Below, piece after piece: positions 1 to 26,993 of a DNA stretch of 35,299 bases. The notes under the pieces are model-generated. The model saw only the letters and a list, made by a program, of their open reading frames with translations, did no database searches and was not told the DNA's origin. Made by a program: the position numbers and the translations under genes. The stretch is from Bacillus sp. (in: firmicutes) (GTDB lineage Bacteria > Bacillota > Bacilli > Bacillales > Bacillaceae), in the NCBI GenBank assembly GCA_031180405.1, contig JAPSLU010000019.1, forward strand, positions 1 to 35,299, in the 5' to 3' direction. Positions within the stretch are counted from its first letter, which is position 1, and each line of letters opens with the position of its first letter.

Positions 1-567
1 GTCAAGCAGAACAGATAGAATTGCGCTGCTTGATGTTGTATTGCCAATGCCCATTTCTCCTAGAATCAGACATTTTATTCCTTTTGTAATTAGTTTTTCA
101 GCTTGTTCATACCCAATAGTAAGTGCTTGTTCAGCTTCTTCTCTAGTCATTGCATCCTGTTCACAAAAGTTTGCTGTACCGTACCTTACTTTTTTATGAA
201 CTAGACCTTCTGCAAGAATATCTTCGGCAACACCAACATCAACAATCTCAAACATTGCTCCTATTTGTCGTGAAAAGACATTAATAGCGGCCCCTCCATG
301 TAAAAAGTTCAACACCATTTGAGCTGTAACAGTTTGTGGAAAGGCAGAAACGCCTTCATTTACGACGCCATGATCTGCTGCAAACACAATGACGCCAGGA
401 GGTGTTACAGTTGGAAAGCTATCAGAAGTCATTTCAGCTAGTTTAATAGCCAATTCTTCTAAACGACCTAAGCTTCCGGGCGGCTTTGTTAACGTGTCAA
501 TGTAAGAACGAACGCTTTCTCCTACTTGTTTATTTAATGGTGGAATGTCAGGAAAAGTATGCATCAT
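1..567 (-). CDS. cobT: Nicotinate-nucleotide--dimethylbenzimidazole phosphoribosyltransferase CobT (3' part outside window)
   Basis: The visible 189 residues are the N-terminal half of CobT, which transfers phosphoribose from nicotinate mononucleotide to a lower-ligand base (dimethylbenzimidazole in the classical case) to give alpha-ribazole phosphate for the nucleotide loop of cobalamin. Recognisable blocks are KPPGSLGRLE near residue 28, the ADHGV segment near 65-70 and GEMGIGNTT near 170. The family is usually about 350 aa, so roughly half lies beyond position 1. The start is the first of two adjacent ATGs. It overlaps the cbiP stop as ATGA and follows AAAGGAG, so translation is probably coupled to cbiP. 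It is the most distal gene of the cbi operon visible here. Identity is secure from the motifs; the missing half, including the expected catalytic glutamate region, cannot be checked. Confidence 0.95.
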   Translation of the reverse strand, partial: MMHTFPDIPPLNKQVGESVRSYIDTLTKPPGSLGRLEELAIKLAEMTSDSFPTVTPPGVIVFAADHGVVNEGVSAFPQTVTAQMVLNFLHGGAAINVFSRQIGAMFEIVDVGVAEDILAEGLVHKKVRYGTANFCEQDAMTREEAEQALTIGYEQAEKLITKGIKCLILGEMGIGNTTSSSAILSVLLD

Positions 568-2081
568 ATTGATAAACTCCTTTGGTGGAAATTCTCCATT
601 TCCCGTTGTATCACATCCATATCAACATGTTTACGAACATGATCTGCTAATCGGTCGAAAGCTTCCTCACGCAATTGGTTAAAGGAAATACGATCTTTAA
701 TGGGGGGGAGTCCCTTACTGTTGCGAATCGTATTGAGGTACTCAGTGCGAAAGGAATCATTATGAAAAATCCCGTGAAAATATGTGCCTATCACTTGTTC
801 ATTTGAAGTTTTACAACCGTCCTCCCGATCAGAAGACTGAATGAACACTTCATGATCTCCTTTATACTTGGTTTCACCCATATGAATCTCATAGCCTTTC
901 ACATTGAAGGGTTTTTGATTAAATACAAGCTCTCCCTCTGATAGTAGGGTTGTTTTTTCTTTAGTCATGGTCGTTGTTAGTGGAAACAGACCTAGAGCAT
1001 ACATAAACCGAAGGGGAGACTCCACCGCATCCGGGTCTTGAATTTCAGATCCTAGCATTTGAAATCCACCACAAATACCGAAGATATGACATTGCTTTTT
1101 TTCATATAAATCTAGTAATCGTTGTGCAATTCCACTGTTCTTTAAAAATTGCAAATCCTCTAACGTATTTTTACTACCAGGCAAAATCACTAGATCTGGT
1201 TCCTTTAGCTGGTCTTCTCGTGTGATAAATCGAACATGACAGTCAGGTTCATGAAAAAAAGGGTCAACATCTGTGAAGTTTGAAATTTTCGGGTATTGAA
1301 TGACCGCAATATCGATTTCTTTTTCATCGTTTAAAGCTGATGTGTATTGATTTAAAATCACAGAGTCCTCCGCATCTATGTTTATATGAGGAAGATAAGG
1401 GATAACACCTAATACTCGTTTCCCAGTGTATTCCTCAAACCATTTAAGACCTGGCTCAAGTAAGCGAATGTCTCCTCTGAATTTATTTATAATTACTCCA
1501 ATAATCCGATCATGATCCTCAGGCTCTAGTAGCTGAAGGGTTCCAACAAGACTCGCAAAAACCCCGCCTTTTTCAATGTCCCCAATTAATACAACAGGTG
1601 CATTTGCCATTCTAGCCACGCGCATATTAACGAGCTCACGGTCATTTAGATTAACCTCTGCAGGACTACCGGCACCTTCTATGACAATCCGGTCATATGT
1701 ATGTGAGAGATGTGAAAGAGACTCCTGAATTAACCTCAAACCAGTTGAAAAAAATGATCTTCGGTATTCACTAGCTTCCATATTTTTATAAGGCTTTCCG
1801 TGTACAACGATTTGGGATTCATAATCGCGATTTGGTTTAATTAAGATTGGGTTCATATCAGTTGTGGCTTGAATAAAAGCTGCTTCGGCCTGAACACCTT
1901 GTGCTCGCCCAATTTCTTTTCCATCTATCGTAATGTAAGAGTTTAAAGCCATGTTTTGTGATTTAAAAGGGGCTGTTTTGTAGCCATCTTGAGCAAAGAT
2001 CCGGCAAAATGCTGTGACTATCACACTTTTGCCTGCATCAGAATGGGTACCCTGAAACATAATAGGTAATGCTTTAGCCAT
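564..2081 (-). CDS. cbiP: Cobyric acid synthase CbiP/CobQ
   Basis: This 505-aa enzyme amidates the b, d, e and g side chains of adenosylcobyrinic acid a,c-diamide with glutamine and ATP, giving cobyric acid. An N-terminal dethiobiotin-synthetase-like P-loop domain has GTHSDAGKS at about residues 11-19. The C-terminal class I glutamine amidotransferase domain has the nucleophile context GICGGFQMLG near residue 336 and the catalytic His in YFHGIF near 436. The reading frame stays open upstream, but the family start MAKALPIM is the ATG at 2081, preceded by AAGGAG; the upstream extension is not conserved. It overlaps the end of cbiA by 8 nt and its own stop overlaps the cobT start. Length and motifs are normal for the family. 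Confidence 0.97.
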   Translation of the reverse strand: MAKALPIMFQGTHSDAGKSVIVTAFCRIFAQDGYKTAPFKSQNMALNSYITIDGKEIGRAQGVQAEAAFIQATTDMNPILIKPNRDYESQIVVHGKPYKNMEASEYRRSFFSTGLRLIQESLSHLSHTYDRIVIEGAGSPAEVNLNDRELVNMRVARMANAPVVLIGDIEKGGVFASLVGTLQLLEPEDHDRIIGVIINKFRGDIRLLEPGLKWFEEYTGKRVLGVIPYLPHINIDAEDSVILNQYTSALNDEKEIDIAVIQYPKISNFTDVDPFFHEPDCHVRFITREDQLKEPDLVILPGSKNTLEDLQFLKNSGIAQRLLDLYEKKQCHIFGICGGFQMLGSEIQDPDAVESPLRFMYALGLFPLTTTMTKEKTTLLSEGELVFNQKPFNVKGYEIHMGETKYKGDHEVFIQSSDREDGCKTSNEQVIGTYFHGIFHNDSFRTEYLNTIRNSKGLPPIKDRISFNQLREEAFDRLADHVRKHVDMDVIQREMENFHQRSLSI

Positions 2082-3450
2082 ATGTATGAATCTCCTTACA
2101 AAACGCGATCCAATTTTCGACCATTTCCGGATAGGAAGCAAAATGAAAATGAGTATAACCGGCAACAACATGATGTGTTAAGCAGCCCTCGAGTTTTTTT
2201 CCTCTCATTCCTTTTGTTTCATAAGCATGGTCAATCTCTTTATTTGGTTCAAAGGTTGAGTAATGGAACTCATGACCTCTTGCTTTTTGATTTTCATTAA
2301 TAAGGAAATTACCAGGACGTCCACTAATTTCTCGATAGCCTAGCGCAACTCTTTTCGTGTGCATCTTCACTGCACCTGAAATAACTCCGACCATTTCATA
2401 TCGGGAACCTTCTGTTGTTTCAATTGAATCGGTCAGATACATAAATCCCCCGCATTCAGCGAGTGTAGGGAGCCCATTAACAATAGCGTCTTTAATCGTT
2501 TGTTTTGCTAGGTGGCTTTCAGAAAGCTCTTTGGCAAATTCCTCTGGAAATCCTCCACCGATATAAAGACCATCTATATCTTTTGGTAAGGCTTCATTAG
2601 CTAACGGTGAAAAATAAACAAGCTCAGCACCTTTAGCTTCTAATATTTCAAGATTTTCAGGGTAATAGAAATTGAAAGCGGCATCCTTTGCTACAGCTAT
2701 TTTGACTGATTTCTCTCTCTTTACTTCAAAAAGAGAAGTGTGTAGTTTGGGATCGATAAGACCTGCTTGGGATAATTCAAGCAATTGATCGATATCTACG
2801 GTTTCTAAAACGAGATCACCTAATCTATCAAAGAAAGGTTCCAACTCACCTCTTTCAATGGAGGGGATAAGACCTAAGTGTCTTTCTGGTATCTCGATTT
2901 CAAGCTCACGCTTTAAGTAGCCAATAACTGGTACATGACACTCCTGTTCAATTGCTGTTTTAACTAGCTTATAATGTCCTTCACTTCCTACTTTGTTTGC
3001 AATAACCCCAACAATATTTGGATCTTTAGAAAGCAACTGAAATCCTTTTACAATGGCTGCTGCGCTTCGAGCCATGCTTGCACAATTCACGACAAGTAAA
3101 ACAGGACTCTGCGTAATTATGCTAATGTCAGCTGTACTACCTTCATTTGTTTTAGGGTCTTTTCCATCATAAAATCCCATAACCCCCTCAATAATCGAGA
3201 TATCTGCTCCCCGACTTCCATGAGTAAAGATATCTAATACTGTTTCTTTTGAAAGCATCCAGCTATCGAGATTTCGAGAAACTCGATTTGTTACAGCTGT
3301 ATGATACGAAGGGTCGATATAATCTGGACCACACTTAAAGCCTTGCACGGTCAAACCTTTTTTTCTAAGTGCTGACATTAAACCAATTGTAAGGGTTGTT
3401 TTTCCAACACCGCTTCCAGTTCCAGCTATTACAATTCTGTTATTAGTCAT
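2074..3450 (-). CDS. cbiA: Cobyrinic acid a,c-diamide synthase CbiA
   Basis: This 458-aa glutamine-dependent amidotransferase amidates the a and c acetate side chains of cobyrinic acid in the anaerobic pathway. The sequence shows an N-terminal P-loop, GTGSGVGKT at about residues 10-18, the NLDSWM and EGVMGFYDG blocks of the CobB/CbiA family, and a C-terminal glutamine amidotransferase domain with AECGGFMYL (nucleophilic Cys near 332) and HEFHYS. The open frame extends 13 codons upstream, but the ATG that gives MTNNRIVIAGTG matches the family start and follows AGAGGCAGG. There is a 19-nt gap from cbiG, and the end overlaps cbiP by 8 nt. CbiA and CbiP are paralogous; the shorter length and block order separate this one from CbiP. 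Confidence 0.96.
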   Translation of the reverse strand: MTNNRIVIAGTGSGVGKTTLTIGLMSALRKKGLTVQGFKCGPDYIDPSYHTAVTNRVSRNLDSWMLSKETVLDIFTHGSRGADISIIEGVMGFYDGKDPKTNEGSTADISIITQSPVLLVVNCASMARSAAAIVKGFQLLSKDPNIVGVIANKVGSEGHYKLVKTAIEQECHVPVIGYLKRELEIEIPERHLGLIPSIERGELEPFFDRLGDLVLETVDIDQLLELSQAGLIDPKLHTSLFEVKREKSVKIAVAKDAAFNFYYPENLEILEAKGAELVYFSPLANEALPKDIDGLYIGGGFPEEFAKELSESHLAKQTIKDAIVNGLPTLAECGGFMYLTDSIETTEGSRYEMVGVISGAVKMHTKRVALGYREISGRPGNFLINENQKARGHEFHYSTFEPNKEIDHAYETKGMRGKKLEGCLTHHVVAGYTHFHFASYPEMVENWIAFCKEIHTYG

Positions 3451-3469
3451 CTTGAAAAACCTGCCTCTC

Positions 3470-4594
3470 TTAATAAGGAATAATACCAACAGAAATCGTT
3501 ACATTCCCTGATTTTTTCTTTGTGAGTGAAAGTGAGTGAGCACCACTATATAAACGAGCAGCAGGTTCACTTACCCCATATGCACCCGTAAATTTATACA
3601 CTGTTTCAGAAGGAAGTTCGATATGAGCTGTATTTAATTCCTTAGCGGAATAACAGGTAAATTCCCATTGATATTTTTGTGCGACTTCAATGATTCCAGC
3701 TTCATCTTTTTTCAGATCAATGGAACAAATTGCTTTCACGCTTTTAATAGAAAACTTTAATTCTTGTAAAGTATCTAAGATGACTTGTTCGATTTCTTCC
3801 TTTGACGTTCCGCGGTTACAGCCTATACCAAGTACAATCACCTTTGGTCGATAAAGAACTCCGTTTTGGAGAATGTCTTGTTCATCTTCAACTAAATTTC
3901 GGTGTGTCACGACAAGTGCTGCTTTCGGCTTAGCTTCTAAGGCGTCTTTTATCGTCGGGTAAATTTTTAGCATTTCTGGAAGTGGTTTATCATATGTCCA
4001 CCATTCTTTTTCCCCAGATTCTTGAACAATGGCGACATGTTCTTCATTGACAACAGATGCACTAACAGGTGTTAGCTTGTCTGCACTTTCCCATACCCAG
4101 CCAAAGCGACTACCAAATAAGTCCACAGGTATCGTTTTTTGGACGTCTGAAGCTGTTGTAATGACAGGTGTTGCCTGTAACATTTCAGCAATTTCCCTTG
4201 TTAACTCGTTTGCTCCACCTAAATGACCGGATAAAACGCTAATGACATGATTTCCTTTATCATCGATGACGACAACAGCCGGATCAGTTTTTTTATCTTT
4301 CAAAAGAGGCGCAATCATTCGTACAACTGCACCTAAAGAAATAATCATAATAATTCCTTTATAGCTTTGAAAAAGGGATGGTAGAAGCATTCGAACATTT
4401 CCTTCGAAAAGAGAAATGTTCCGATCAGTTTCATCTCCCTTTTCAAACTTACTCATGTAAAATAAATCAGCTTGATGGAAGCTTGCATGTAAATGACGTG
4501 CTAGCTCTACTCCATGCTTCGTAATAGCCACAATCGCATATGTTCCATTTTGGTTAAGTTTGATTAGCTTACCTTCTTCTAAAACAAGTGTCAT
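3470..4594 (-). CDS. cbiG: Cobalt-precorrin-5A hydrolase CbiG
   Basis: CbiG opens the delta-lactone of cobalt-precorrin-5A and releases the two-carbon fragment as acetaldehyde, a step special to the anaerobic cobalamin route. The 374-aa protein has the N-terminal CbiG domain (AIVAITKHG), the middle block GAVVRMIAPLL and SVLSGHLGGANELT near residues 95-135, and the C-terminal CobE-like domain beginning around VLGIGCNRGTSKEE. The ATG overlaps the cbiF stop as ATGA and follows AAAGGAG with good spacing. CbiG itself, rather than an oxygen-using CobG, is one of the clearest signs that this operon encodes the cobalt-early pathway. Confidence 0.95.
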   Translation of the reverse strand: MTLVLEEGKLIKLNQNGTYAIVAITKHGVELARHLHASFHQADLFYMSKFEKGDETDRNISLFEGNVRMLLPSLFQSYKGIIMIISLGAVVRMIAPLLKDKKTDPAVVVIDDKGNHVISVLSGHLGGANELTREIAEMLQATPVITTASDVQKTIPVDLFGSRFGWVWESADKLTPVSASVVNEEHVAIVQESGEKEWWTYDKPLPEMLKIYPTIKDALEAKPKAALVVTHRNLVEDEQDILQNGVLYRPKVIVLGIGCNRGTSKEEIEQVILDTLQELKFSIKSVKAICSIDLKKDEAGIIEVAQKYQWEFTCYSAKELNTAHIELPSETVYKFTGAYGVSEPAARLYSGAHSLSLTKKKSGNVTISVGIIPY

Positions 4595-5364
4595 TCTTTC
4601 ACTCCTTTACGAAAACCATGAGTAAAGGCTTTATCATAAAGCTTTGATTTAAAGTCTTTTTGATGAATGTTTTTATCAAGCGCCCATCCTGCTAGGATCA
4701 TCGCTTGTTTACGTATTCCATTTGTTCGCATATCTTCATCAAGATGCTCTAGTGTGGATCGGACAATTTTTTGATCAGGCCAAGTTGCCTTGTACACGAC
4801 TCCTACTGGTGTGTCCTTGCTCCAGCCTGCATCTAAAAATTCCTTTACAATCTTTTTGGTAAGTGTGGCACTTAAAAACAATGCGATTGTACAATTATGC
4901 TTTGCTAAATCTTTTAATTTCTCCGCATCGGGAACGGGCGTTCTTCCCTCTGCACGAGTAAGAATAACTGTTTGTGTAAGCTCTGGTATGGTTAACTCTG
5001 CACCTAATGCCGCGGCTGATGCAAAAACAGAGCTTACTCCAGGAATAATTTCAACGTGAACATCTTTTTTGTTTAAGATGGCAATTTGCTCCATGATGGC
5101 ACCATAAACAGCAGGATCTCCAGTATGAACACGGACTACCTTCTTCCCTTCCTGAACGCGGTCTACCATTACTTCCACCATTTCTTCAAGGTGCATGCCT
5201 GCTGTTTTAATGACTTCTGCTTCAGGCTTTGCTTTTTCAATTAGTTCTGTATTAACTAATGAATCTGCGTATAGTACCACGTCTGCCTCTTGAAGAAGTT
5301 TTAAGCCTTTTACTGTAATTAGATCAGGATCTCCAGGTCCAGCCCCTATGATTGTGATTTTCAT
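4591..5364 (-). CDS. cbiF: Cobalt-precorrin-4 C(11)-methyltransferase CbiF
   Basis: This 257-aa SAM-dependent tetrapyrrole methylase methylates C-11 of cobalt-precorrin-4. It has the class III methyltransferase signature GAGPGDPDLITVKG at the N-terminus, the VHTGDPAVYGA block near residues 85-95, and the CbiF/CobM block VLYADSLVN. The frame is open for 22 more codons upstream, but that segment overlaps cbiL out of family register. The ATG giving [11 protein letters not shown] shares one nucleotide with the cbiL stop (TAATG) and follows GGTGGTGAG. CbiF, CbiL, CbiH and CbiE are paralogous; assignment rests on the CobM-like N-terminus and the position next to cbiG. Confidence 0.95.
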   Translation of the reverse strand: MKITIIGAGPGDPDLITVKGLKLLQEADVVLYADSLVNTELIEKAKPEAEVIKTAGMHLEEMVEVMVDRVQEGKKVVRVHTGDPAVYGAIMEQIAILNKKDVHVEIIPGVSSVFASAAALGAELTIPELTQTVILTRAEGRTPVPDAEKLKDLAKHNCTIALFLSATLTKKIVKEFLDAGWSKDTPVGVVYKATWPDQKIVRSTLEHLDEDMRTNGIRKQAMILAGWALDKNIHQKDFKSKLYDKAFTHGFRKGVKE

Positions 5365-6068
5365 TATTTTCTCACCACCATTAATGTTAAATATTCGAGT
5401 TCTACTCGATCTAACTCGCGAATGTCCCAAATAATTTCTTCATCAGATGTTACCTTTGTAACAACAGATGCTTTATCCATTAAATCAAGTTCACGTAAAA
5501 TTTGTAGCATGAGATCCATTACCTTTGCGACTTTAATGAAAATCACACAATCATTTTCAACAATTGCTTTTTTCATTGTTTCATAGTCGTCTCTCGCAGG
5601 AATAATAGAAACATGGTCATCTCCCTCTGCTAAGGCAATTCCTAATCTTGAAGCAGCTCCATTAATGGATGAAATACCAGGAACCGTTTGAATGCTTACC
5701 TCTGGGTAACGCTCTTTTACAAGGTTCATCATATGAATAAACGTACTGTATAGGAGAGGATCACCTTCTGTTACAAACGCAACATCTTTGCCTGTTTTAA
5801 GCTTTTCCCATACAAGCTCTACCGTATTAGACCATTCCCGTTCAAGAATGTCTGGATCCTTTGTCATAGGAAAGACGAGCCCTAACATTTCCTTTTCACC
5901 AGGTGTTATGTATACATCAATAATTCGTTGGGCATAGCTTTTGCTGCCTTTTCTTTTTTTGGGATACGCAATAACAGGAGCTTCTTTGAGCTTTCTAAAG
6001 GCTTTTACTGTTAAAAGCTCAGGATCTCCTGGTCCTACACCTAAACCGTATAACGTTCCTATCATCAT
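5364..6068 (-). CDS. cbiL: Cobalt-factor II / precorrin-2 C(20)-methyltransferase CbiL
   Basis: CbiL adds the C-20 methyl group to cobalt-factor II, giving cobalt-factor III for ring contraction by CbiH. The 234-aa sequence starts with the SAM-methylase loop [16 protein letters not shown], then has the C20-methyltransferase block [10 protein letters not shown] near residues 30-42, [11 protein letters not shown] near 105-115, and [15 protein letters not shown] near 130-145. These distinguish it from the C11 and C17 enzymes. Two adjacent ATGs are possible starts (6068 and 6065); both follow GGAAGGGG, and the first overlaps the cbiET stop as ATGA. The 3' end shares one base with the cbiF start. 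Confidence 0.95.
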
Positions 6069-7276
6069 TTTTCCCCTTCCTTATGCATTGCCGTAATAAT
6101 ATAGATTGGATTTAAGGCATCGAATCGTGTGAGATTTAAAATGGGTTTACTTCTTGAAATTTGGGATAGGGTAATGTTGACGTCAAGGCCATTACGTCTA
6201 AAGCCATCAACAGCTTGTGATAGATTTTCAATCGTAACCGCATTTAATACGATTCTTCCTCCCCGCTTTAAACGGGAACTGCAAATAGATAGAATATCCT
6301 CCATTCCACCAGCAGTTCCACCGATAAAAATAGCATCAGGGTCTGGAAACTGATCTAATTTGTCAGGTGCTTTACCTTGAACTACTGTAAAGTCAGTTCT
6401 GAATTTCCGCATATTTAAGCGACAGTTCTCTAAATCATGGTCATTTTTTTCTATTGCATACACCTGTCCCTCTTTTGCAATCAAACAGGCCTCTATTGCC
6501 ACTGAACCCGTACAAGTGCCAATATCCCAAACAACACTCTTTGAAGTAAGCTTCATTTCACTTAGACTAAGAGTTCTAATTTCTCTTTTTGTTAGTAATC
6601 CTTTTTCAGGTTTTCTTTGATGAAATTCCGCATCATCTATTCCAAACGACCATGTTTTTCCTTCAGTAGTCTTTTTTAAAATGACAACATTTAGCGAAGA
6701 GAACTCCGTGTTCTCCATTTCCTCTAGCTCGTAAAAGGCATAGCGCTCATTTTCGCCACCAAGATTTTCTGCAACAAACGCCTTGTATTCATTCATATCA
6801 AAAGAGCGTAAATAGCGGGCAATCTGAGAGGGACTGTTTGTAGCATCAGTAAGAAGGGCAATTTTTTCACGCCCATTTATTCGTTGGGCAAGACCTTTCA
6901 TACTTCTCCCGTGAACACTTACGATGTAGGCGTCCTGCCAGCTTTCGTTCATCTTTGAAAAAGCTTGTTGTAAAGAACTTAAATAAGGATAAACTTCCAC
7001 ATTTAGCTTTTTCGCAAGGTAGCTACCGATTCCATAAAATAATGGATCCCCGGATGCGAGTACAACAACGTTTCGTTTTTCCTTTTCTAGTTTCGTGATG
7101 AGTGATGATAATCCACCTTTAATCATCACTTTTTCTCCATTAAAGTCTTGAAAAAATGACAGGTGTCGTTCTCCACCTACCAGTACATCACTCTCATAAA
7201 TCCATTTTTCATAGATTGGTAGAAGACTTTGTTTACCATCGTCTCCTATGCCAATAACCTTAATTTTATCCTTCAT
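6065..7276 (-). CDS. cbiET: Fused cobalt-precorrin-7 C(5)-methyltransferase / cobalt-precorrin-6B C(15)-methyltransferase CbiET
   Basis: One 403-aa polypeptide joins two enzymes. The N-terminal half (about 1-200) is the CbiE tetrapyrrole methylase ([19 protein letters not shown]). The C-terminal half (about 205-403) is CbiT, a Rossmann SAM methyltransferase with [15 protein letters not shown] near residue 250 and the [12 protein letters not shown] block near 310. CbiT also decarboxylates the C-12 acetate chain. CobL of the aerobic pathway has the same fusion; here the neighbours place it in the anaerobic route. A TTG codon at 7294 could extend the frame by six residues, but the ATG at 7276 follows AGGCAGG at proper spacing. 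The start overlaps the cbiD end by 11 nt. Confidence 0.95.
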
Positions 7277-8378
7277 GTTTTCCTGCCTTTCCAAGCAATG
7301 TACCCTTCATCGTGTACAAACTTGTTTCAATCGAAATTCCGCCACCAATTTCCTTTAGTCCGGAGGAACAGCAATAGGTACAAAGGAGAGTGAAAAAGGT
7401 ATGGTACCCATTTTCGAAAAGTAAATCTCCTACTTGTGATGCGGTATTCGCTTGTTTAATTGTCTCAAGTAGCTCTTCATCGTTAACACCTGCTTCTGCA
7501 GCTACATTCGCAAGAAAGTTAAAGTCAACCGGGGCACTTTTTGAATGAACCATCATGACTCCTTGAGCAACTTTTGAAAATTTCCCCATCATCCCGACAA
7601 GCGAGACCTTCTTTATTCCTTGGCGTTTGCATTGTTTAAGGGTGAACCCGACAAAATCCCCCATTTCAATAAACGCTTCTTCAGGTAGGTCCGGGTACTG
7701 CTTCATACCATATTTTTCGCTTCGACCACCTGTTGTAATGACAACATGCTCACATTGACTTGCCCTTGCCACACTAATCGCTTGAACGATGCTTGCCATA
7801 TAAGCGGAGCTTGAAAATGGAATAACGGTGCCTCTTGTCCCTAAGATGGAAATGCCACCTATGATACCAAGTCGTTTATTTAAGGTTTTTTCTGCTATTT
7901 TTTCCCCATCAGGAACGGAGATGATAATTGAAATACCTCTAGTAATCCCATGGCTTTTAAGAACTTCTTCGGCAGTCTCAAGGATCATTTTCTTTGGAAC
8001 AGGGTTAATGGCTGCCTCACCAACGGGGACAGGCAACCCATCCTTTGTTACCCGACCAACACCAATTCCACCATCAAGTAAAATTCCGGGTTTATCACTC
8101 CAAGATACGGTCGATATAATAAGTGCCCCATGTGTAGCATCTGGATCATCGCCTGCGTCCTTAATTGTTCCTGCCTCAGCATAGTCAGACGCAACTACAC
8201 AACTCTCCATTTCAAACGTTGCAAATTTCCCTACCGGTAAAAAAATCGTGCTCTCTGTTTGGTGTTCGCCAGTGATTAAGGCAAGCAAGGCCGCTTTTGT
8301 AGTGGCCGTTGCACATGCACCTGTTGTATAACCTGAACGCATTTCTTTTTTATCTTTCTTTTTGGAGTTTCCGTCCAT
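7266..8378 (-). CDS. cbiD: Cobalt-precorrin-5B C(1)-methyltransferase CbiD
   Basis: CbiD methylates C-1 after CbiG has removed the two-carbon fragment; it is specific to the anaerobic pathway and has a fold unlike the other corrin methylases. The 370-aa protein begins, after a lysine-rich leader, with the family signature [17 protein letters not shown]. It then shows [11 protein letters not shown] near residues 73-83, [22 protein letters not shown], and [13 protein letters not shown] near 215-230, all typical CbiD blocks. The ATG follows AAAAGGA, with only 2 nt between it and the cbiC stop. Length and motif order are normal. Confidence 0.96.
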
Positions 8379-8380
8379 TG

Positions 8381-9028
8381 CTATTCCTTTTCTGCAAGAA
8401 GGGAAATTGCATTTAACGCAGCAACCGTGACCGTACTACCACCTTTTCTTCCAACATTTGTAATAAAAGGTACATCTAATTTTGCTAATTCTTCTTTTGA
8501 TTCAGGTGCTGAGACAAAACCAACTGGTAATCCAATTACTAAACTTGGCTTTGCTTCCCCTTCTTTAATTAGTCGAATTAATTCAAGTAAAGCCGTTGGT
8601 GCATTGCCGATGGCAAAGATTCCACCATCAAATTGTTTTATAGCTTTTCTTACTGAAATAATTGCCCGAGTTGTGTTTAAGCGCTTTGCTTCTTCCATAA
8701 CGTCCGGATCTGAAATGTAAACGTGGACACCGCCGCCATGTTTTTCGATTCTACCTTTACTTACTCCAGCTAAAATCATTTGAACATCCACATATACTTG
8801 TTCTCCATTACGTATAGCGTCAATTCCAGCTTGAATGGCTCTATCATGAAATTGCATACTATGGCCTAAGTCAAAATCAGCAGATGCATGAACAACACGC
8901 TGAACGACCTTGTATTGGTCATCAGTGAAGGAATGTTCCCCAAATTCTGAATCAATCATATTAAAACTAATGCCTTCAATTTCTTGTGGTTGGACGGTTA
9001 GTGGTTTAAATTCTGTTTTAAAATCCAT
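8381..9028 (-). CDS. cbiC: Cobalt-precorrin-8 methylmutase CbiC
   Basis: This 215-aa mutase moves the methyl group from C-11 to C-12 to give cobyrinic acid. The segment VHASADFD carries the expected catalytic histidine at about residue 47. Later blocks are GVSKGRIEK near 98, AIGNAPTALLELI near 145 and a C-terminal GRKGGSTVTVAALNA, all characteristic of CobH/CbiC. The ATG is preceded by AGGAGG at good spacing. It lies between cbiJ (40-nt gap) and cbiD (2-nt gap). No unusual feature was seen. Confidence 0.95.
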   Translation of the reverse strand: MDFKTEFKPLTVQPQEIEGISFNMIDSEFGEHSFTDDQYKVVQRVVHASADFDLGHSMQFHDRAIQAGIDAIRNGEQVYVDVQMILAGVSKGRIEKHGGGVHVYISDPDVMEEAKRLNTTRAIISVRKAIKQFDGGIFAIGNAPTALLELIRLIKEGEAKPSLVIGLPVGFVSAPESKEELAKLDVPFITNVGRKGGSTVTVAALNAISLLAEKE

Positions 9029-9068
9029 CTTATATTCCTCCTATTGTTTCAATATTTTCAATCGTTAC

Positions 9069-9833
9069 TTATTTAATAATTTCCTCCATATGGCTAAGAA
9101 CGCTATGGAAATCAGAAAAAGCATTTCCGTATTGAATCTTTGGTCTTTGTATCATGATTGTCTCAATCCCTAGTTCTAGTGCCGCTTCTAATTTTTCATC
9201 AACAGAACCTGCTTTCCCACTTTCCTTTGTAATCATCGTTGTTACGCCATATTGCTTGTATAAAGCAGAATTAAATTCCTTTGTAAATGGTCCTTGTATG
9301 GCGACAATGTCTTTTTGTGGAAAACCGAGTTTTTCGCATTTTTCCATATTGTCCTTTCTTGGTAGCATGCGAGCAATCACCCTTGTTTCTGGTTGGTTTA
9401 ACAATTTGCGAGTAAATGTTTCTAATGTTTTACTACCAGTTGTAAGCATGATAATACCCTTTCTTTCAGCTGCTACCGTTGCGGCCTGCTCATAGTTTTC
9501 GACTAATGTAATTTTAGGGTGTTGATAGGATTGTGATTCACGCTCATATCTGATATAAGGAATTCCGGCTTCTTTTGCACTTAATAGAGCATTTTTGCTT
9601 GCTTCTTCGGCAAAAGGGTGACTAGCATCAACGACAGCTTTAAAGTCTTGTTCTTGAATCATGTTTACAAAATCCAGATGGGTTAGTCTTCCAACATAAA
9701 CATCTAGCCCCACCCTTTGCATTTCTTTTCCTGCATTTTCTGTCACGACAGTTGTAAGAATATTGTATCCTGCTTCTTTTATGGTTAAGGCTAATGCTCT
9801 TGCATCACTTGTACCGGCTAAAAAGAGAATCAT
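9069..9833 (-). CDS. cbiJ: Cobalt-precorrin-6A reductase CbiJ
   Basis: CbiJ reduces the macrocycle of cobalt-precorrin-6A using NAD(P)H. The 254-aa protein starts with the CobK/CbiJ signature LAGTSDARALA, and has VVDASHPFAEEASKNAL near residues 65-80, YIRYERES near 95, a TTGSKTLE block near 130 and TKESGKAGS near 203, all standard for the family. Its ATG overlaps the cbiX stop as ATGA. The ribosome binding site is weak (an AGG about 11 nt upstream), which fits coupled translation from cbiX. It is followed by a 40-nt gap, the largest internal spacer in this half of the operon. Confidence 0.94.
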   Translation of the reverse strand: MILFLAGTSDARALALTIKEAGYNILTTVVTENAGKEMQRVGLDVYVGRLTHLDFVNMIQEQDFKAVVDASHPFAEEASKNALLSAKEAGIPYIRYERESQSYQHPKITLVENYEQAATVAAERKGIIMLTTGSKTLETFTRKLLNQPETRVIARMLPRKDNMEKCEKLGFPQKDIVAIQGPFTKEFNSALYKQYGVTTMITKESGKAGSVDEKLEAALELGIETIMIQRPKIQYGNAFSDFHSVLSHMEEIIK

Positions 9834-10720
9834 CGTTTTTGAGCCTCATGTTCATGGTGGTGATGGTGGTGATGATCGTGGTCATGGTCGTGATCATGAT
9901 GGTGGTGATGGTCGATATGCTCCATCGCTTCAATTCGATAAACACACGTATCACAGTTCATTTTCACTTCACCACGTAATGCCTCTTCAATTCGGTCGTT
10001 AATAATGGTTCTTAACCTTGTATGGAACCCAAAATAACCTGCAAGCTTGAACTCAATACCTGGATATTTTTGCTCAAACTCTTTGATCATGCTTTCAAGG
10101 CGTTTGATTAAAATGCCTGTAAAAAGAAAATAGGGTAATATGACGATCCTTTTTGCTCCTAACTTGATACAGCGTTCAACGCCTTCTTTTACTAAAGGAT
10201 CTGTAACACCCATAAAAGCTGGCTCTACAAATTTATAGTTCAGTTTTTCCCATAATAAGCGAGTGATCTTATATAAATCACTATTAGCATCAGGATCGCT
10301 TCCGCCTCGGCCTAATAAAATGACAGCTGTATCCGGATCTTCTTCATTTATTTTCTCGCCGACTTCTTCTAAACGGCTTTTACAAATTTCGATTGTTTCC
10401 TCATGAATGCCGAACGGTCTCCCATACGTAAACGAAACATGTGGGTATTTCACCTTTGCTTCATCAATCGCCGCAGGGATATGGATTTTTGAATGTCCAG
10501 CTGCTAGCAGCATAAGTGGAATGACAAAAACACTTGTCGCACCCTTTTCTACGCATGTTTGAATGCCTTGATCAATCGTTGGCCTTTCAAACTCTAAAAA
10601 ACATGTTTCGACTAAAAGCTCTGAATCTATCTGTGGCTTTAATTCTTCAATGGTTTGCCTTACCTGATCATTTCCTTCTGGGTCTCTACTTCCATGTCCA
10701 ACTAATAAAATTGCTTTCAT
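9830..10720 (-). CDS. cbiX: Sirohydrochlorin cobaltochelatase CbiX, long form with Cys motif and histidine-rich tail
   Basis: CbiX inserts Co2+ into sirohydrochlorin, the committed step of cobalt-early synthesis. The 296-aa protein has two related halves: VGHGSRD with a metal-binding His at about residue 9, and the GHSKIHIP block with His76 and His80. The second half is degenerate, as in long CbiX. Near the C-terminus an M-x-C-x-x-C motif (Cys256, Cys259) is followed by a tail with 17 histidines in residues 268-291, mixed with Asp and Glu. Long CbiX of Bacillus megaterium is known for an Fe-S centre and a His-rich tail, and this matches. The frame extends 11 codons upstream to an ATG overlapping cbiH60, but ATG 10720, after GGGGAG, gives the family start MKAILLVGHG. 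Confidence 0.96.
   Translation of the reverse strand: MKAILLVGHGSRDPEGNDQVRQTIEELKPQIDSELLVETCFLEFERPTIDQGIQTCVEKGATSVFVIPLMLLAAGHSKIHIPAAIDEAKVKYPHVSFTYGRPFGIHEETIEICKSRLEEVGEKINEEDPDTAVILLGRGGSDPDANSDLYKITRLLWEKLNYKFVEPAFMGVTDPLVKEGVERCIKLGAKRIVILPYFLFTGILIKRLESMIKEFEQKYPGIEFKLAGYFGFHTRLRTIINDRIEEALRGEVKMNCDTCVYRIEAMEHIDHHHHHDHDHDHDHHHHHHHEHEAQKR
9845..9925. repeat. Low-complexity His/Asp codon run in cbiX
   Basis: On the plus strand this is a run of ATG, GTG, ATC and GTC triplets; on the coding strand it is CAT/CAC and GAT/GAC codons for the histidine-rich tail of CbiX. Repeats of this sort are prone to slippage, so tail length may vary among strains. It is part of an intact gene, not an independent element. 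Confidence 0.85.
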
Positions 10721-10740
10721 ATGCTTCTCCCCTATCCCTT

Positions 10741-12381
10741 TTAATCTCCACATGGAGCTGGTTCAATTTCAATCTTTGGTGTCATATCTTTATATGTATA
10801 GCCTTGTATAGTTCCAACACGTCTAAAATATTTGAAAAACCTCTCATTTGGATGTCCTTTTTCTTTGTATTCATAGACAATATTTTCAATAACCTCGACG
10901 ATTTTGTCTGGCTCAATCCCTTCCGCTACGGGTTGACCTGCGTGGGCTGTTCTTCCAACTGTTTTAGCACCTAAAAATAAATCGAATTTTCCCTTTCTAA
11001 ATATAATTCCAATGTCTTCATTTACCGCACCGAAACATGCCATACCACAGCCGTTGAAGCCAACCTTCAACTCCTTAGGTAAATCAAGACCGCTTAGCTT
11101 TTGATGAAGCTCTTCTGCATGAGGAATGGAATCTTTCTTTTCCCCTTCACAAAAGTCACATGCTTTGAGTTGAAAAACATCGCCAATAGGTTCTAATAGA
11201 AACCCAACATCGCTTAACTTTTTCGTGATCACGTCGGGTTCACTTGTAGGAATTCTTAAAATAATTTGATGGTGTGGTGTATATTCCATAGAGCCTTCAC
11301 TACCAACAACCTCAGCAAGTGTCATCATTTGTTGTGGTGTAAACTTCTTATTGGCAACTCCAGGGCTTACAGCTAATTCAAAAATGGAGGTTACCGTGTT
11401 TTTTACTGGAATTTGTTCATGTATCTGGTTTTCGATTGTTGTCTTGTTTGGATCACGATCTACTTTTTCAAGAGCCTCTAGAGCAATTTGTAGTGAACTT
11501 TCTTCAACTTTGTTCGGCTTTGCCTTTTTTGTTGGCGGCATATCATTGATCCCTTTATGTAGAGCCCATGGCTCGTTTTCATGTCGGAGTCGTTCATGTG
11601 GCTTTAACCGTTGTTCAGTTGAATTTAACGTGTATTTTCGTTGATAGCCTCTAGGAGTGATCAATTTATTGTCATATAAAAAAGTTGTCGAGTTTCCAAT
11701 GACAACGGTTGTGAGCATTCCAATATCATAATCAAGCATATGTTCAAGGTCGGTAATGACGATATGTTGCCGATCACGATAAGCGCTTTTGACAAGTCCA
11801 ACTGGTGTAGATGGTGATCGATAGTTTAAAAGAATTCTTTGTGCTTCTTGAATTTGTCTAGTTCTACGGCCGCTTTTTGGGTTATAAAGCGTAACAACAA
11901 AATCAGCCTGTGCCGCTGCATCGATCCGCTTTTCGATGATATCCCAAGGAGTTAGATGGTCACTTAGACTTATTGTGCACGCATCATGCATGATAGGGGC
12001 TCCTAATAAGGATGCACAGGAATTGATCGCCGAAACACCAGGAATAACTTCCACACTAACTCCTGTTGCTTCCTTCCAACCTTTTTCAATCAATACTTCA
12101 TATACAAGACCAGCCATTCCATATACTCCAGCATCGCCACTTGAAATAACTGCTACTGTTTTTCCTTCTTCAGCAAGACGTACGGCCGCTTGGGCACGGC
12201 TTACTTCCTCTGACATTCCAGTACTAATAATCTCTTGATCTGTCAATAAATCTTGAATAAGCTCAACATAAGTTTTGTATCCAATAATACAATCGCTCTC
12301 CTGTATGGCATCCTGAGCTCTTTTTGTCATATGCTCAAAACTTCCCGGTCCGAAACCAATAACAAGTAATTTTCCTAGCAA
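10741..12381 (-). CDS. cbiH60: Cobalt-factor III C(17)-methyltransferase, ring-contracting, with Fe-S reductase-like domain (CbiH60)
   Basis: This 546-aa protein joins a CbiH/CobJ SAM methylase (about 1-245: GFGPG, SSGDAGVYGMAG, VIPGVSAINS) through a charged linker to a nitrite/sulfite-reductase-like half domain (about 320-530). The second part holds a CDFC motif near 406-409 and CGMAC near 446-450, which would bind a [4Fe-4S] cluster. The fusion is known as CbiH60 in B. megaterium, where it contracts the corrin ring by methylating C-17 and forming the delta-lactone. An upstream TTG at 12411 is in frame, but the TTG at 12381 sits 8 nt after AAAGGAGG and gives the family start (M)LGKLLVIGFGPG, so it is preferred. 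It lies between cbiW and cbiX. Confidence 0.95.
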   Translation of the reverse strand: MLGKLLVIGFGPGSFEHMTKRAQDAIQESDCIIGYKTYVELIQDLLTDQEIISTGMSEEVSRAQAAVRLAEEGKTVAVISSGDAGVYGMAGLVYEVLIEKGWKEATGVSVEVIPGVSAINSCASLLGAPIMHDACTISLSDHLTPWDIIEKRIDAAAQADFVVTLYNPKSGRRTRQIQEAQRILLNYRSPSTPVGLVKSAYRDRQHIVITDLEHMLDYDIGMLTTVVIGNSTTFLYDNKLITPRGYQRKYTLNSTEQRLKPHERLRHENEPWALHKGINDMPPTKKAKPNKVEESSLQIALEALEKVDRDPNKTTIENQIHEQIPVKNTVTSIFELAVSPGVANKKFTPQQMMTLAEVVGSEGSMEYTPHHQIILRIPTSEPDVITKKLSDVGFLLEPIGDVFQLKACDFCEGEKKDSIPHAEELHQKLSGLDLPKELKVGFNGCGMACFGAVNEDIGIIFRKGKFDLFLGAKTVGRTAHAGQPVAEGIEPDKIVEVIENIVYEYKEKGHPNERFFKYFRRVGTIQGYTYKDMTPKIEIEPAPCGD

Positions 12382-12426
12382 TGAATATTCCTCCTTTAAA
12401 AACCGTATCAAGTTAACGTATTTTAA

Positions 12427-12807
12427 CTAAACCTTACTTTTTTGTTTATCTATTCCAACAATAGATTCTGATTGTTCAGGAGCGATAAACTGATGTTGAT
12501 CATATGTATAAATCACACTTTCTTCTATCACTCTTCCGCCAACTAGGTGATCTTGGACAATTTCCCTTGCTAATTCAGGGGACGCAGCCTTATACCATAC
12601 TCCTTCGGGATAGACCACAACAACACAAGCATCTTTACATCTGCCATTACAGCGTGTTCTTGTTGTATGGATTTTATGGTCCATTTCTAAGTTTGTAATT
12701 TCTTCCCGTATCGCTTGTGTAACTTCTTCGCCGCCTTTTCTCATACAGCTACTTCCATTGCATATTAAGACATGGTGTTGTGTGTCCGTTAAGTTCCAAG
12801 TTGTCAT
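12427..12807 (-). CDS. cbiW: CbiW, thioredoxin-like [2Fe-2S] ferredoxin-type protein
   Basis: This 126-aa protein is the first gene of the operon. It contains CNGSSC near residues 16-21 and CNGRCKDAC near 53-61, the four-cysteine pattern of thioredoxin-fold [2Fe-2S] ferredoxins, followed by VYPEGVWY, a strand common to that fold. In B. megaterium the gene at the same place, before cbiH60, is cbiW; its role is not settled. Because the next gene encodes an Fe-S methyltransferase, delivery of electrons to CbiH60 or CbiX is a reasonable inference, not something the sequence proves. The ATG has a modest GGAAG upstream. It is separated from cbiH60 by 45 nt and follows the riboswitch terminator by about 35 nt. 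Confidence 0.88.
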   Translation of the reverse strand: MTTWNLTDTQHHVLICNGSSCMRKGGEEVTQAIREEITNLEMDHKIHTTRTRCNGRCKDACVVVVYPEGVWYKAASPELAREIVQDHLVGGRVIEESVIYTYDQHQFIAPEQSESIVGIDKQKSKV

Positions 12808-12842: not shown

Positions 12843-12873
12843 TAAAAAAGCACCTCCATATAGGCAGAGGTGC
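12843..12873 (-). terminator. Rho-independent terminator of the proximal cobalamin riboswitch
   Basis: On the minus strand GCACCTC (12873-12867) pairs with GAGGTGC (12856-12850) across a 10-nt loop, and a run of Us follows. It lies between the proximal aptamer and the cbiW start, so it is the OFF state of the expression platform. Its 5' arm and loop also pair with 12909-12926, which makes an antiterminator. Confidence 0.9.
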
Positions 12874-12926
12874 ATGAAAAATACCGCTAAAACTTTAGCG
12901 TTTTTAACTACACGTCTACCTATATG
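12857..12926 (-). promoter_or_regulatory. Antiterminator pairing of the proximal riboswitch
   Basis: The RNA from 12926-12909 can pair with RNA 12874-12857 over 18 positions, with two G-U pairs and one C-C mismatch. This removes the 5' arm and loop of the terminator. The same upstream strand can instead fold back, 12917-12922 with 12931-12936 (6 bp), next to the aptamer; that competing stem would free the terminator. This was read by eye; no folding program was run. A small hairpin (CGCTAAA / TTTAGCG) lies in the spacer between the two strands. Confidence 0.7.
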
Positions 12927-12950
12927 CCCGTAGGTATATGTATGAAAAAA

Positions 12951-13105
12951 AGGCAGGTCTCCTGACTAAGGTTCATCGCTTTATTACGTCTTCCCAAGTT
13001 GAATTAGTGACATCGTGTAATAAAGCTCACCATTACAGTGGCGGGTACCGTGTCGGATTTTAACCGACTTCCCTTTTGGCACAACAAGTTGTTATGCACC
13101 TTTCT
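12951..13105 (-). promoter_or_regulatory. Cobalamin riboswitch aptamer, proximal copy
   Basis: The minus strand carries the ordered cobalamin-aptamer blocks: AGGTGC at the 5' end, GCCAAAAGGGAA, AAAATCCGAC, the CCCGCCACTGT core (around 13035-13045), and the 3' B12 box AGTCAGGAGACCTGCC (ending near 12951). It is followed by its own antiterminator and terminator, then cbiW. Known members of this class turn off downstream genes when adenosylcobalamin binds. A second aptamer lies upstream in the same transcript direction. Confidence 0.95.
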
Positions 13106-13185
13106 CTCAATCTATTAAGTTACTCATCCTTAGCGTATTACTTCATATTACAAATTATGTCCAATATAAATAATAACGAAAAAAG

Positions 13186-13215
13186 CAAAAAATCCGCTCA
13201 TAGAACCTGAGCGGA
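13186..13215 (-). terminator. Rho-independent terminator of the distal cobalamin riboswitch
   Basis: On the minus strand TCCGCTCA (13215-13208) pairs with TGAGCGGA (13200-13193), 7-nt loop, then six Us. It ends the distal riboswitch module with no ORF before the next aptamer, about 80 nt downstream. Upstream RNA around 13288-13269 can pair with 13229-13211, overlapping the terminator's 5' arm, so an antiterminator is present here as well. Confidence 0.9.
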
Positions 13216-13311
13216 TGAAAAGGGTAGACGAAAGCAATCCAAGCTAAAAATTGATTATGGCTGCGGTCGTCTCACCTTCTCACCTCCCGAAGAAACTGAA
13301 ACTTTATAAAT

Positions 13312-13480
13312 TAAGACAGGTCTCCTGACTTGTGCTTCACTCTACTTTAAGCCCTTCCCATATAGATGACTTTTTAAAAGCATCTTTACAGTGGTCTACT
13401 TATTTCGTCAGCACTTACAGTTGCGGGGACAGTTCTGGACTTACACCAGATTCCCTATTAAGCCTATTAGGCATCCTAAT
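13312..13480 (-). promoter_or_regulatory. Cobalamin riboswitch aptamer, distal copy
   Basis: A second complete cobalamin aptamer on the minus strand: GGATGCC at the 5' end, GGCTTAATAGGGAA, AAGTCCAGAACTG, the CCCCGCAACTGTAAG core (around 13415-13428) and the B12 box AGTCAGGAGACCTGTC near 13312-13327. Outside the conserved blocks it differs strongly from the proximal copy, so this is not a recent tandem duplication. It is followed by a separate expression platform and terminator at 13186-13215, with no gene between it and the proximal riboswitch. Confidence 0.95.
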
Positions 13481-13531
13481 TTACTTGCTTAAATATTTTG
13501 AAAAATATAGTTATGATAAGTTACTCGTATT

Positions 13532-13560
13532 ATCATAATAGAACTTTCGGGACATTTCAA
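13532..13560 (-). promoter_or_regulatory. Likely sigma-A promoter of the cobalamin operon leader
   Basis: TTGAAA (13560-13555), a 17-nt spacer and TATGAT (13537-13532) match the sigma-A consensus well. Transcription would begin about 45 nt before the distal aptamer. It is the best promoter seen upstream of the two riboswitches. Confidence 0.7.
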
Positions 13561-13748: not shown

Positions 13749-13889
13749 CTATGCTTCATCTTTTTCGTCATATGCAATCAATACAATGTTCTCATTTGTT
13801 TCGTTTCGAAGCTCATTTTCTAGAGTTAGAATTTTTTTGAGTTGATGATCATCAAGGTTTGCTACTGGAAAATTGTCATAAACACTCAT
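13749..13889 (-). CDS. Small acidic protein of 46 aa upstream of the cobalamin leader, unknown function
   Basis: This short frame encodes MSVYDNFPVANLDD at the N-terminus, a middle rich in Leu, Glu and Asn, and ends NIVLIAYDEKDEA. The ATG follows AAGGGAG at about 9 nt, a good Bacillus ribosome binding site. No signal peptide, membrane segment or cysteine motif is present; a short amphipathic helix is possible around residues 13-30. I do not recognise the family. Support for it being real is a second, frameshifted copy at 27866-27986 that keeps NFPVAN and ELRTELNENIVLIAY in pieces. It lies upstream of the tandem riboswitches on the same strand, about 190 nt before their likely promoter, so it is probably a separate transcript or reads through into the leader. 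Confidence 0.7.
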   Translation of the reverse strand: MSVYDNFPVANLDDHQLKKILTLENELRNETNENIVLIAYDEKDEA

Positions 13890-25712: not shown

Positions 25713-26993
25713 CTAATAATACAATTCGAATAGTTGTACAAACTCAAGTTCCTCATAGTCAACGGCATAGTCAATCGCTGACATTTCATCTGAATCCTTT
25801 AATGTTGGATCCGCACCAGCCTCTAATAATAATTTTCCTGATTCAAGATCTCCCGTTACAACAGCTGACATTAATGGTGTCCATCCGTAGTCATCTTGAA
25901 GATTAGGATCTGCACCATATTCTATGAGAATCGGGAGATATTGTGGTCTTTCATTCACAATTGAAACTAATAAGGCACTTTCTCCATATTCATTAAGCAC
26001 ATTTGGATCTGCCCCATCTGCTAATAATTGCTCTACCGTTTCTTGGTCGTTGTCAATAATAGCTTGCATTAATGGATCATACTCAAGTGGTGCTTCTATT
26101 TCACTTAAAAAATCAAGCTTTGAAACAACCATTGCAACACCAACTGAAATCCCGATAAATACCGCCGGGAAGAGGATGAAGACTAGAGCTAAAATTATGA
26201 TGATTTGCCTTGTTCTTCTTTGCAAACTTACAGTTGGTTCATCATTCATAAATGTTTGTATTTCATGAATTCGCTTTGGAAGCGGAGGATGTGTTGATAG
26301 TAACTCTGTAAGTGTTGCAAAGAAACCTTTTTTTTCATTATATTGTTCCATGTATTCCTTAAGGTTCACTTTATTATACAGACGTCTTCCTGCTGCTAGA
26401 ATTAATAGTCCGTTGATTGCATTCTGTGGTTTCTCTGTATAATAAGCTGCCATACGATCACAAGTATATTCAGCCATCCGTAAGTAACTTGTCCCTAGAA
26501 ATGGGATCCACATAGCCAATGATACAAATACACTCTTCAGAATATGATTTTGTTTAAGATGTGCTAGTTCGTGCGCAATAATATAATCAATATCAAAGTC
26601 AGGCATCTCCTCAGCTATATCAACAAAATCAGAATATAATACAATCATATTTTTTCCTGACAAAGCTAATACTTTTGTTGCGAACGCATTTAATAATCCC
26701 CCAGATTCAACAATGTAGACTTCAGGTACATTACTTAATTCCATTTTATTCGAAAGGTCAACGACTTTGTCATACAACTCAGGTAATTGTGACTCACGTA
26801 GTCTAACTCCGTTTAATTGGATATGTGACATCGAGATTATATGAGAAAATAACGAAAGAAGAGCAAGTGCTAGGAAAATAAAAATCCCAACGATCGATAA
26901 AAGTAAATATAAAGCTATGATACTGGTTGTAATCACACATATAATAAATAGTAGATTTTCATGTTTATGTACTAATGATTGATTTGATTTCAT
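25713..26993 (-). CDS. M48-family membrane metalloprotease fused to C-terminal ankyrin repeats
   Basis: This 426-aa protein has an HtpX-like M48 protease followed by ankyrin repeats. There are membrane helices at about 14-55 and 260-290. The zinc site is HELAH (His141, Glu142, His145) with a third ligand probably Glu175 in AEYTCDR. From about residue 300 there are four ankyrin-like repeats: DPLMQAIIDNDQETVEQLL, ESALLVSIVN..., GWTPLMSAVVTGDLESGKLL and a weaker final one, with the GADPN turn repeated three times. The protease would degrade membrane or nearby proteins; the repeats should lie in the cytosol and bind a partner or substrate. The ATG follows AAAGGAG. It stands alone. The fusion is uncommon and is described as a finding. 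Confidence 0.9.
   Translation of the reverse strand: MKSNQSLVHKHENLLFIICVITTSIIALYLLLSIVGIFIFLALALLSLFSHIISMSHIQLNGVRLRESQLPELYDKVVDLSNKMELSNVPEVYIVESGGLLNAFATKVLALSGKNMIVLYSDFVDIAEEMPDFDIDYIIAHELAHLKQNHILKSVFVSLAMWIPFLGTSYLRMAEYTCDRMAAYYTEKPQNAINGLLILAAGRRLYNKVNLKEYMEQYNEKKGFFATLTELLSTHPPLPKRIHEIQTFMNDEPTVSLQRRTRQIIIILALVFILFPAVFIGISVGVAMVVSKLDFLSEIEAPLEYDPLMQAIIDNDQETVEQLLADGADPNVLNEYGESALLVSIVNERPQYLPILIEYGADPNLQDDYGWTPLMSAVVTGDLESGKLLLEAGADPTLKDSDEMSAIDYAVDYEELEFVQLFELYY

Follow-up and report, generated by a model that had tools for sequence, protein, structure and literature searches.

Tandem riboswitches that respond to the same ligand are usually explained by steeper control of the genes behind them. 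Pseudo-cooperative tandem adenosylcobalamin (AdoCbl) riboswitches have been described (Sherlock et al. 2022, PMC9481103, citing Sudarsan 2006), and the 26 AdoCbl doublets reported there in 2022 may include the leaders considered here. In 2007, tandems made up less than 1% of AdoCbl leaders (PMC2258182), and the three families that the available text of a 2025 survey gives as enriched for contiguity (PMC12452182) do not include cobalamin; the sole mention of Metabacillus in that text concerns thrS T-boxes. In this study, we describe a cobalamin riboswitch pair in the leader of a corrin operon of Bacillus sp., which resembles the doublets of PMC9481103, as far as these are set out in its available text, in having two complete same-ligand riboswitches with an expression platform each in one leader, and differs from them in the unlike ancestry of its two members and in being traceable by position over 22 loci. 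The two THI-elements before thiSGHFE of Desulfovibrio (PMC545781) likewise form a same-ligand series with a terminator for each member, for another ligand (TPP) and other genes; the available text there does not take up how the two copies are related by descent. The SAM-I/AdoCbl tandem before metE, described as a NOR gate (PMC9481103), is also a series of independent terminating switches, one of them for AdoCbl, with two ligands where the present pair has the same ligand class twice. Tandem AdoCbl riboswitches are thus already known, and the pair described here is real, conserved and of informative origin. In the open-access listings and passages searched, we found no description of this leader or of its mixed ancestry.

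The window, that is the whole stretch of DNA analysed, comprises 35,299 nucleotides (contig JAPSLU010000019.1, positions 1 to 35,299). An earlier note made from these letters had claimed that two complete aptamers, at 13312-13480 and 12951-13105, lie on the minus strand before cbiW, each with a terminator and with no gene between them. The aptamers, their terminators and the operon behind them are as follows.

13298..13493, minus strand: A1, the distal cobalamin aptamer, transcribed first and of full length (RF00174, 111.2 bits, E 2.9e-27)
13192..13216, minus strand: T1, intrinsic terminator of A1 (fold -13.9 kcal/mol, z -4.6)
12935..13118, minus strand: A2, the proximal cobalamin aptamer, full length (RF00174, 117.8 bits, E 3.7e-29)
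12850..12873, minus strand: T2, intrinsic terminator of A2 (fold -12.4 kcal/mol, z -3.3)
12427..12807, minus strand: thioredoxin-like 2Fe-2S ferredoxin (PF01257, 36.1 bits), first gene of the operon and next on the strand, which we take to be cbiW
10741..12411, minus strand: precorrin-3B C17-methyltransferase with a C-terminal nitrite/sulphite reductase domain (TIGR01466, 334 bits; PF00590; PF01077), presumably cbiH60
564..10753, minus strand: the remaining corrin operon, cbiX, cbiJ, cbiC, cbiD, cbiET, cbiL, cbiF, cbiG, cbiA/cobB and cobQ

The scan with the Rfam cobalamin model that the earlier note had proposed bears out its description. When cmscan was run over the whole window, only two matches exceeded the gathering score, both to RF00174 (gathering score 31.5 bits), and both span model positions 1-189; they run from 13493 to 13298 and from 13118 to 12935, with the coordinates given earlier lying inside them. 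These two full-length matches rule out that only one of the two is a true aptamer. The 179-nt gap between A1 and A2 contains no open reading frame of at least 30 amino acids starting on the sense strand, so that two complete aptamers of one ligand class share one strand and one leader with a gene-free gap. Across relatives, 22 of 38 predicted pairs in A1 (21 sequences, the decayed A1 of locus L067 being omitted) and 21 of 38 in A2 (22 sequences) have both partners altered with pairing retained. The genome assembly has five RF00174 matches, A1 and A2 being two of them. Elsewhere in the window, a 46-codon small open reading frame upstream of A1 (13749-13889, minus strand) is without a Pfam match and has copies 80-83% identical in L040, L041 and L042, and a predicted protein at 25713-26993 (minus strand) combines an HtpX-like zinc-metalloprotease part with C-terminal ankyrin-repeat model matches, all of these matches being below the curated cut-offs.

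The pair is not confined to this genome. CbiW counterparts of at least 65% identity occur in 12 of the 21 genus (Metabacillus-like) genomes, our own included, and 20 of the 23 CbiW loci were scanned with cmscan, the three weakest matches (L056-L058) being left out. Exactly two RF00174 matches were found in all 12 close genus cbiW leaders, which rules out a chance pair; at the 8 more distant CbiW relatives there was no RF00174 match by cmscan within 1.5 kb of flank. The named CbiH60 loci, the closest of which is that of Metabacillus bambusae (93% identical), number 62; by our in-house model all of them carry at least one aptamer, and 15 carry two in tandem upstream. Five of these 15 (L059, L060, L062, L064 and L065) are Metabacillus loci already counted among the 12, and all 15 sit among the 24 CbiH60 loci assigned by genus name to the Bacillaceae in the wide sense, where nine loci have a single aptamer, L066 being cut by a contig end. 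A tandem pair occurs in none of the 38 Paenibacillus, Aneurinibacillus and Brevibacillus CbiH60 loci, among which L085 has two aptamers on opposite strands. Rfam confirms both aptamers in 10/10 tandem loci of Bacillaceae other than Metabacillus, and the distinct pairs are therefore 22, namely 12 of the genus and 10 of other Bacillaceae. The rarity of tandem copies stated in the earlier note thus holds for AdoCbl leaders overall, by the figure in the available text of PMC2258182, and fails within the genus, where the pair is the rule (12/12).

Single switches and altered pairs were also seen. The A1-type switch stands alone before the same operon in six loci (L075-L078, L100 and L118), and an A2-like platform stands alone, as judged by eye, in L073, L074 and three Paenibacillus leaders inspected. 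In L067, which was kept among the 22, a decayed A1 (L067:3764-3950, 37.2 bits) lacks T1 and lies beside an intact A2; the pair is therefore dispensable in at least one species, and L067 appears to be losing one switch of its pair. A2 and cbiW of Halalkalibacter alkalisediminis are about 3.2 kb apart (L061:1351-4604), and the pair may control extra genes there. As a separate observation, A2 of L043-L047 has CAGGAAACC as its B12 box in place of CAGGAGACC, and the CAGGAAACC form is also found in several other switches, for example L078, L118 and A1 of L061.

The earlier note had argued from differences outside the conserved blocks that the two aptamers are not a recent duplication, and the phylogeny agrees. 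Each of the 44 aptamers of the 22 pairs has its nearest neighbour among the other tandem aptamers at the same position in another species, and A1 and A2 of one locus are only 0.445-0.618 identical (mean 0.54). A tree of 108 aptamers splits all A1, the decayed one of L067 included, from all A2 with support of 98.9/100 (SH-aLRT/UFBoot), and in it A2 forms a clade with the single switch L066 (97.3/97). AU tests on 105 of the 108 rows (A1 of L067, L026 and L128 left out) rejected a cbi-specific clade of A1 and A2, a group defined by position, with a p value of 7e-21. Recent tandem duplication is thus ruled out by the AU test, the same-position neighbours and the tree split, and the neighbours and the rejection together indicate an old pair made of two modules of different lineages.

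The origin of A1 may differ between genera. The 12 A1 of Metabacillus form a clade with L100 and with 20/20 nrdA-linked switches (96.3/96 in one tree), these links being assigned by tblastn with the protein of L004, the ribonucleoside-diphosphate reductase alpha subunit encoded behind a switch of our own genome. L004 shares the aptamer lineage and the P13 motif of the Metabacillus A1 and, unlike the tandem, is a single switch before another gene. The A1 of other genera group instead with the switches before cbiM (L006) and before an adenosyltransferase-cobQ pair (L010), with one switch lacking a gene assignment (L128) and with five A1-type single switches. A clade of all A1 together with six A1-type singles and without the nrdA switches, a group named after the tree had been seen, was not rejected (AU p 0.192), for which reason a separate origin of A1 in Metabacillus stays a suggestion. 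The expression platform points the same way: nrdA leaders carry a little-changed form of the Metabacillus A1 motif TTTCTTCGGG...GAGAAGGTGAGACGA, and the nrdA leader L127 also shares the A1 terminator arm ATCCGCTCA. These likenesses suggest a separate recruitment of A1 in Metabacillus. We tentatively propose, as a possibility that we would put somewhat below an even chance, that whole riboswitches, aptamer and platform together, move between operons, and that an upstream switch was placed before a resident A2, one of nrdA type in the ancestor of Metabacillus and, separately, one of cbiM or adenosyltransferase-cobQ type in other Bacillaceae. Eleven nrdA leaders (L004, L030, L121, L122, L126, L127, L130, L131, L133, L136 and L137) keep the aptamer and the P13 motif, with a terminator clear to the eye only in L127, and those without one may act on translation.

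Each aptamer has an expression platform of its own, with T1 serving A1 and T2 serving A2. In Cbl-I riboswitches, the ligand docks L5 on L13, the P13 hairpin holds and the terminator forms, which makes an OFF switch. The corresponding elements of the present leader are listed below.

13276..13295, minus strand: P13/L13-like hairpin of A1, TTTCT-TCGGGAGGTG-AGAAG, read from the sequence
13275..13284, minus strand: left half of the A1 antiterminator, GGTGAGAAGG, from the lowest-energy structure of a platform truncated within T1
12918..12935, minus strand: P13/L13-like hairpin of A2, ACCTA-CGGGCATA-TAGGT, read from the sequence
12909..12925, minus strand: left half of the A2 antiterminator, from the minimum-energy fold of the whole platform

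Between 12500 and 14500, both strands together have seven terminator-like sites against 0.9 expected from shuffled sequences. T1 passes the energy test in 20 of the 22 loci, with none in L067 and a weak one in L068; in L039 that test picked another hairpin, yet T1 itself was seen there by a separate test. T2 is present in 21/22 loci by each of two tests, one of which misses L038 and the other L072.

The predicted switching is clearest at A2. Its hairpin loop CGGG can pair with CCCG of L5 near 13046-13041, and CTACGGG is found in the A2 platform of 22/22 loci. The left half of the A2 antiterminator is predicted to pair with 12874-12858, the left arm of T2, and at minimum energy the whole platform folds into this antiterminator. 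Over the 22 loci, the antiterminator duplex has a mean energy of -17.2 kcal/mol with a locus's own partner, -15.5 across loci and -7.3 (sd 2.6) when shuffled. At A1, the hairpin loop can pair with L5 near 13429-13423, and 11 of the 12 genus leaders have the same P13 motif. The antiterminator's left half, which shares bases with P13, is predicted to pair with 13223-13213, and GGTGAGAAGG can pair into CCTTTTCATCC, covering the first four bases of T1 (13216-13213). When the complete A1 platform is folded, T1 is predicted to form and part of the antiterminator helix to remain. The competition is less clear at A1 than at A2, since the overlap is only four bases and T1 coexists with part of the helix in this fold. 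With no chance control for any of these counts, L5 and L13 can form 4-6 uninterrupted pairs in 12/12 genus A1, 4-5 in A2 of 22/22 loci and 3 in 9/10 A1 outside the genus, the pairing being absent in L067. Being short and uncontrolled, this pairing is not counted as evidence of joint change between lineages. The platforms of A1 and A2 seem to share one logic with unrelated sequences.

We consider it likely that A1 and A2 are two independent ligand-OFF Cbl-I switches in series on one transcript begun upstream of A1. Sequence comparison establishes the two aptamers, the two P13-like hairpins, the two terminators, their serial order, the conservation of the pair and the strong predicted antiterminator of A2. 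From these we infer ligand binding, the OFF direction, a single promoter and a benefit of having two switches. A transcript starting upstream of A1 would cross two riboswitches of the adenosylcobalamin class (Cbl-I). At either one, bound ligand would dock L5 on L13 and hold the P13 hairpin, and the held hairpin would remove the left half of the antiterminator so that the terminator forms; with no ligand, the antiterminator would form and RNA polymerase would read on. With abundant corrinoid, the long corrin operon would be shut more tightly, and at a somewhat lower ligand concentration, than by one switch.

Since polymerase has to get through both T1 and T2, one after the other, the leak of such a series would equal the two single leaks multiplied. 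In a series model with termination of 95% at each terminator, the floor falls from 5% to 0.25%; with equal affinities and full termination, the half-point lies at 0.41 of that of a single switch and the effective Hill coefficient is 1.19. The main gain from the pair is thus expected to be a tighter off state, with a lower threshold and a response that is only slightly steeper. A tighter off state agrees with the argument made for ligand-repressed tandem switches in the available text of PMC545781, and the wording "digital" in that of PMC9481103 is stronger than what our series model leads us to expect. The earlier note had thought of a steeper or a two-threshold shut-off of the operon: the model leaves room for the first weakly, with an effective Hill coefficient of at most about 1.2, and for the second only with unequal affinities together with incomplete termination. 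Such a stepped decrease, in which A1 and A2 would differ in affinity or in preferred corrinoid, draws on the low mean identity of the two aptamers (0.54), their different lineages and the nrdA-like character of A1 in the genus, and corrinoid selectivity does vary among riboswitches according to the available text of PMC9600662. However, since the modelled curve becomes much broader only when the affinity ratio is large and termination incomplete, we regard two thresholds as rather unlikely.

Whether the two switches in series share one transcript depends on the promoters. Upstream of A1 lies one promoter-like site.

13532..13560, minus strand: P1, TTGAAA-17-TATGAT, with 10/12 consensus matches

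In 11 of the 12 genus leaders, the highest score upstream of A1 falls to TTGAAA-17-TAT(G/T)AT or TAATAT; the site is located further upstream in L046, and L047 has none. In single leaders, shuffled sequence equals a P1-type score in 0.07-0.5 of trials. Between T1 and A2, the best sigma-A-like site was matched by shuffles in 0.65-1 of trials, and so was no better than chance, in the 9/12 genus leaders that could be tested, and the fractions for L072, L069 and L070 were 0.62, 0.22 and 0.11. The T1 tract ends at most 12 nt from A2 in 6/22 loci (L047, L061, L063, L071, L081 and L102), which leaves no room for a promoter, so that A2 there would be reached only by read-through of T1; in L068, the weak T1 ends 5 nt from A2. 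A short conserved block was observed just before A2 (13119-13165 of the window, minus strand, and L037-L043 and L045): it reads TGGACATA in six genus leaders and GACATA in three more (9/12), followed by TAATA-like letters, and is kept although the remaining spacer varies. The block may represent a weak promoter, some other signal or a piece of the RNA itself. If it were a promoter, the leader would hold two independent units, A2 and T2 controlling the transcripts of both promoters and A1 and T1 only those of the distal one. The conservation of the block in nine of twelve leaders speaks for this, as does its place beside A2 even where repeats have been inserted further up in L038; its -10-like hexamer, however, is poor, shuffles reach the gap sites as often as stated in the nine leaders tested and L072, and six to seven of the 22 loci offer no room, all of which makes a second promoter improbable.

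That A1 is a relic with no regulation left is very unlikely. Decay can happen, as it has in L067, but within the genus A1 is better conserved than A2 (mean pairwise identity 0.846 vs 0.707), 22 of its 38 pairs carry pairing-preserving changes on both sides, and its P13 motif is all but invariant among the leaders (11/12).

The spacers between A1 and A2 range from 110 to 516 nt across the 22 loci. In L038, the spacer is enlarged by two repeat copies at 171-nt spacing between T1 and A2 (L038:2419-2746), perhaps a mobile repeat; no internal repeats were found in the long spacers of L069 (430 nt) and L070 (365 nt). Part of another copy lies after T2 (L038:2010-2090), the riboswitch pair there being still intact. 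The range of spacer lengths and the L038 insertions fit two independent modules. Several long spacers contain short sense-strand open reading frames of 31-73 amino acids, which differ in place and length, and in none of the 22 spacers did the comparison of leaders in relatives suggested by the earlier note reveal a recognisable gene. Its idea that the distal switch once served a gene since deleted from between the two is therefore unsupported and, with a lone A1-type switch directly preceding cbiW in L118, hardly credible.

Our results therefore favour two OFF switches in series, with family-wide counterparts, sister species that have a single type of switch, and a likely relative before nrdA in the same genome. 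These make it testable whether the benefit of a second OFF switch lies in leak, threshold or steepness, and whether the tandem originated by duplication or by recruitment. If the recruitment of whole modules proposed above is true, same-ligand tandems would come about through recruitment and convergence instead of local duplication.
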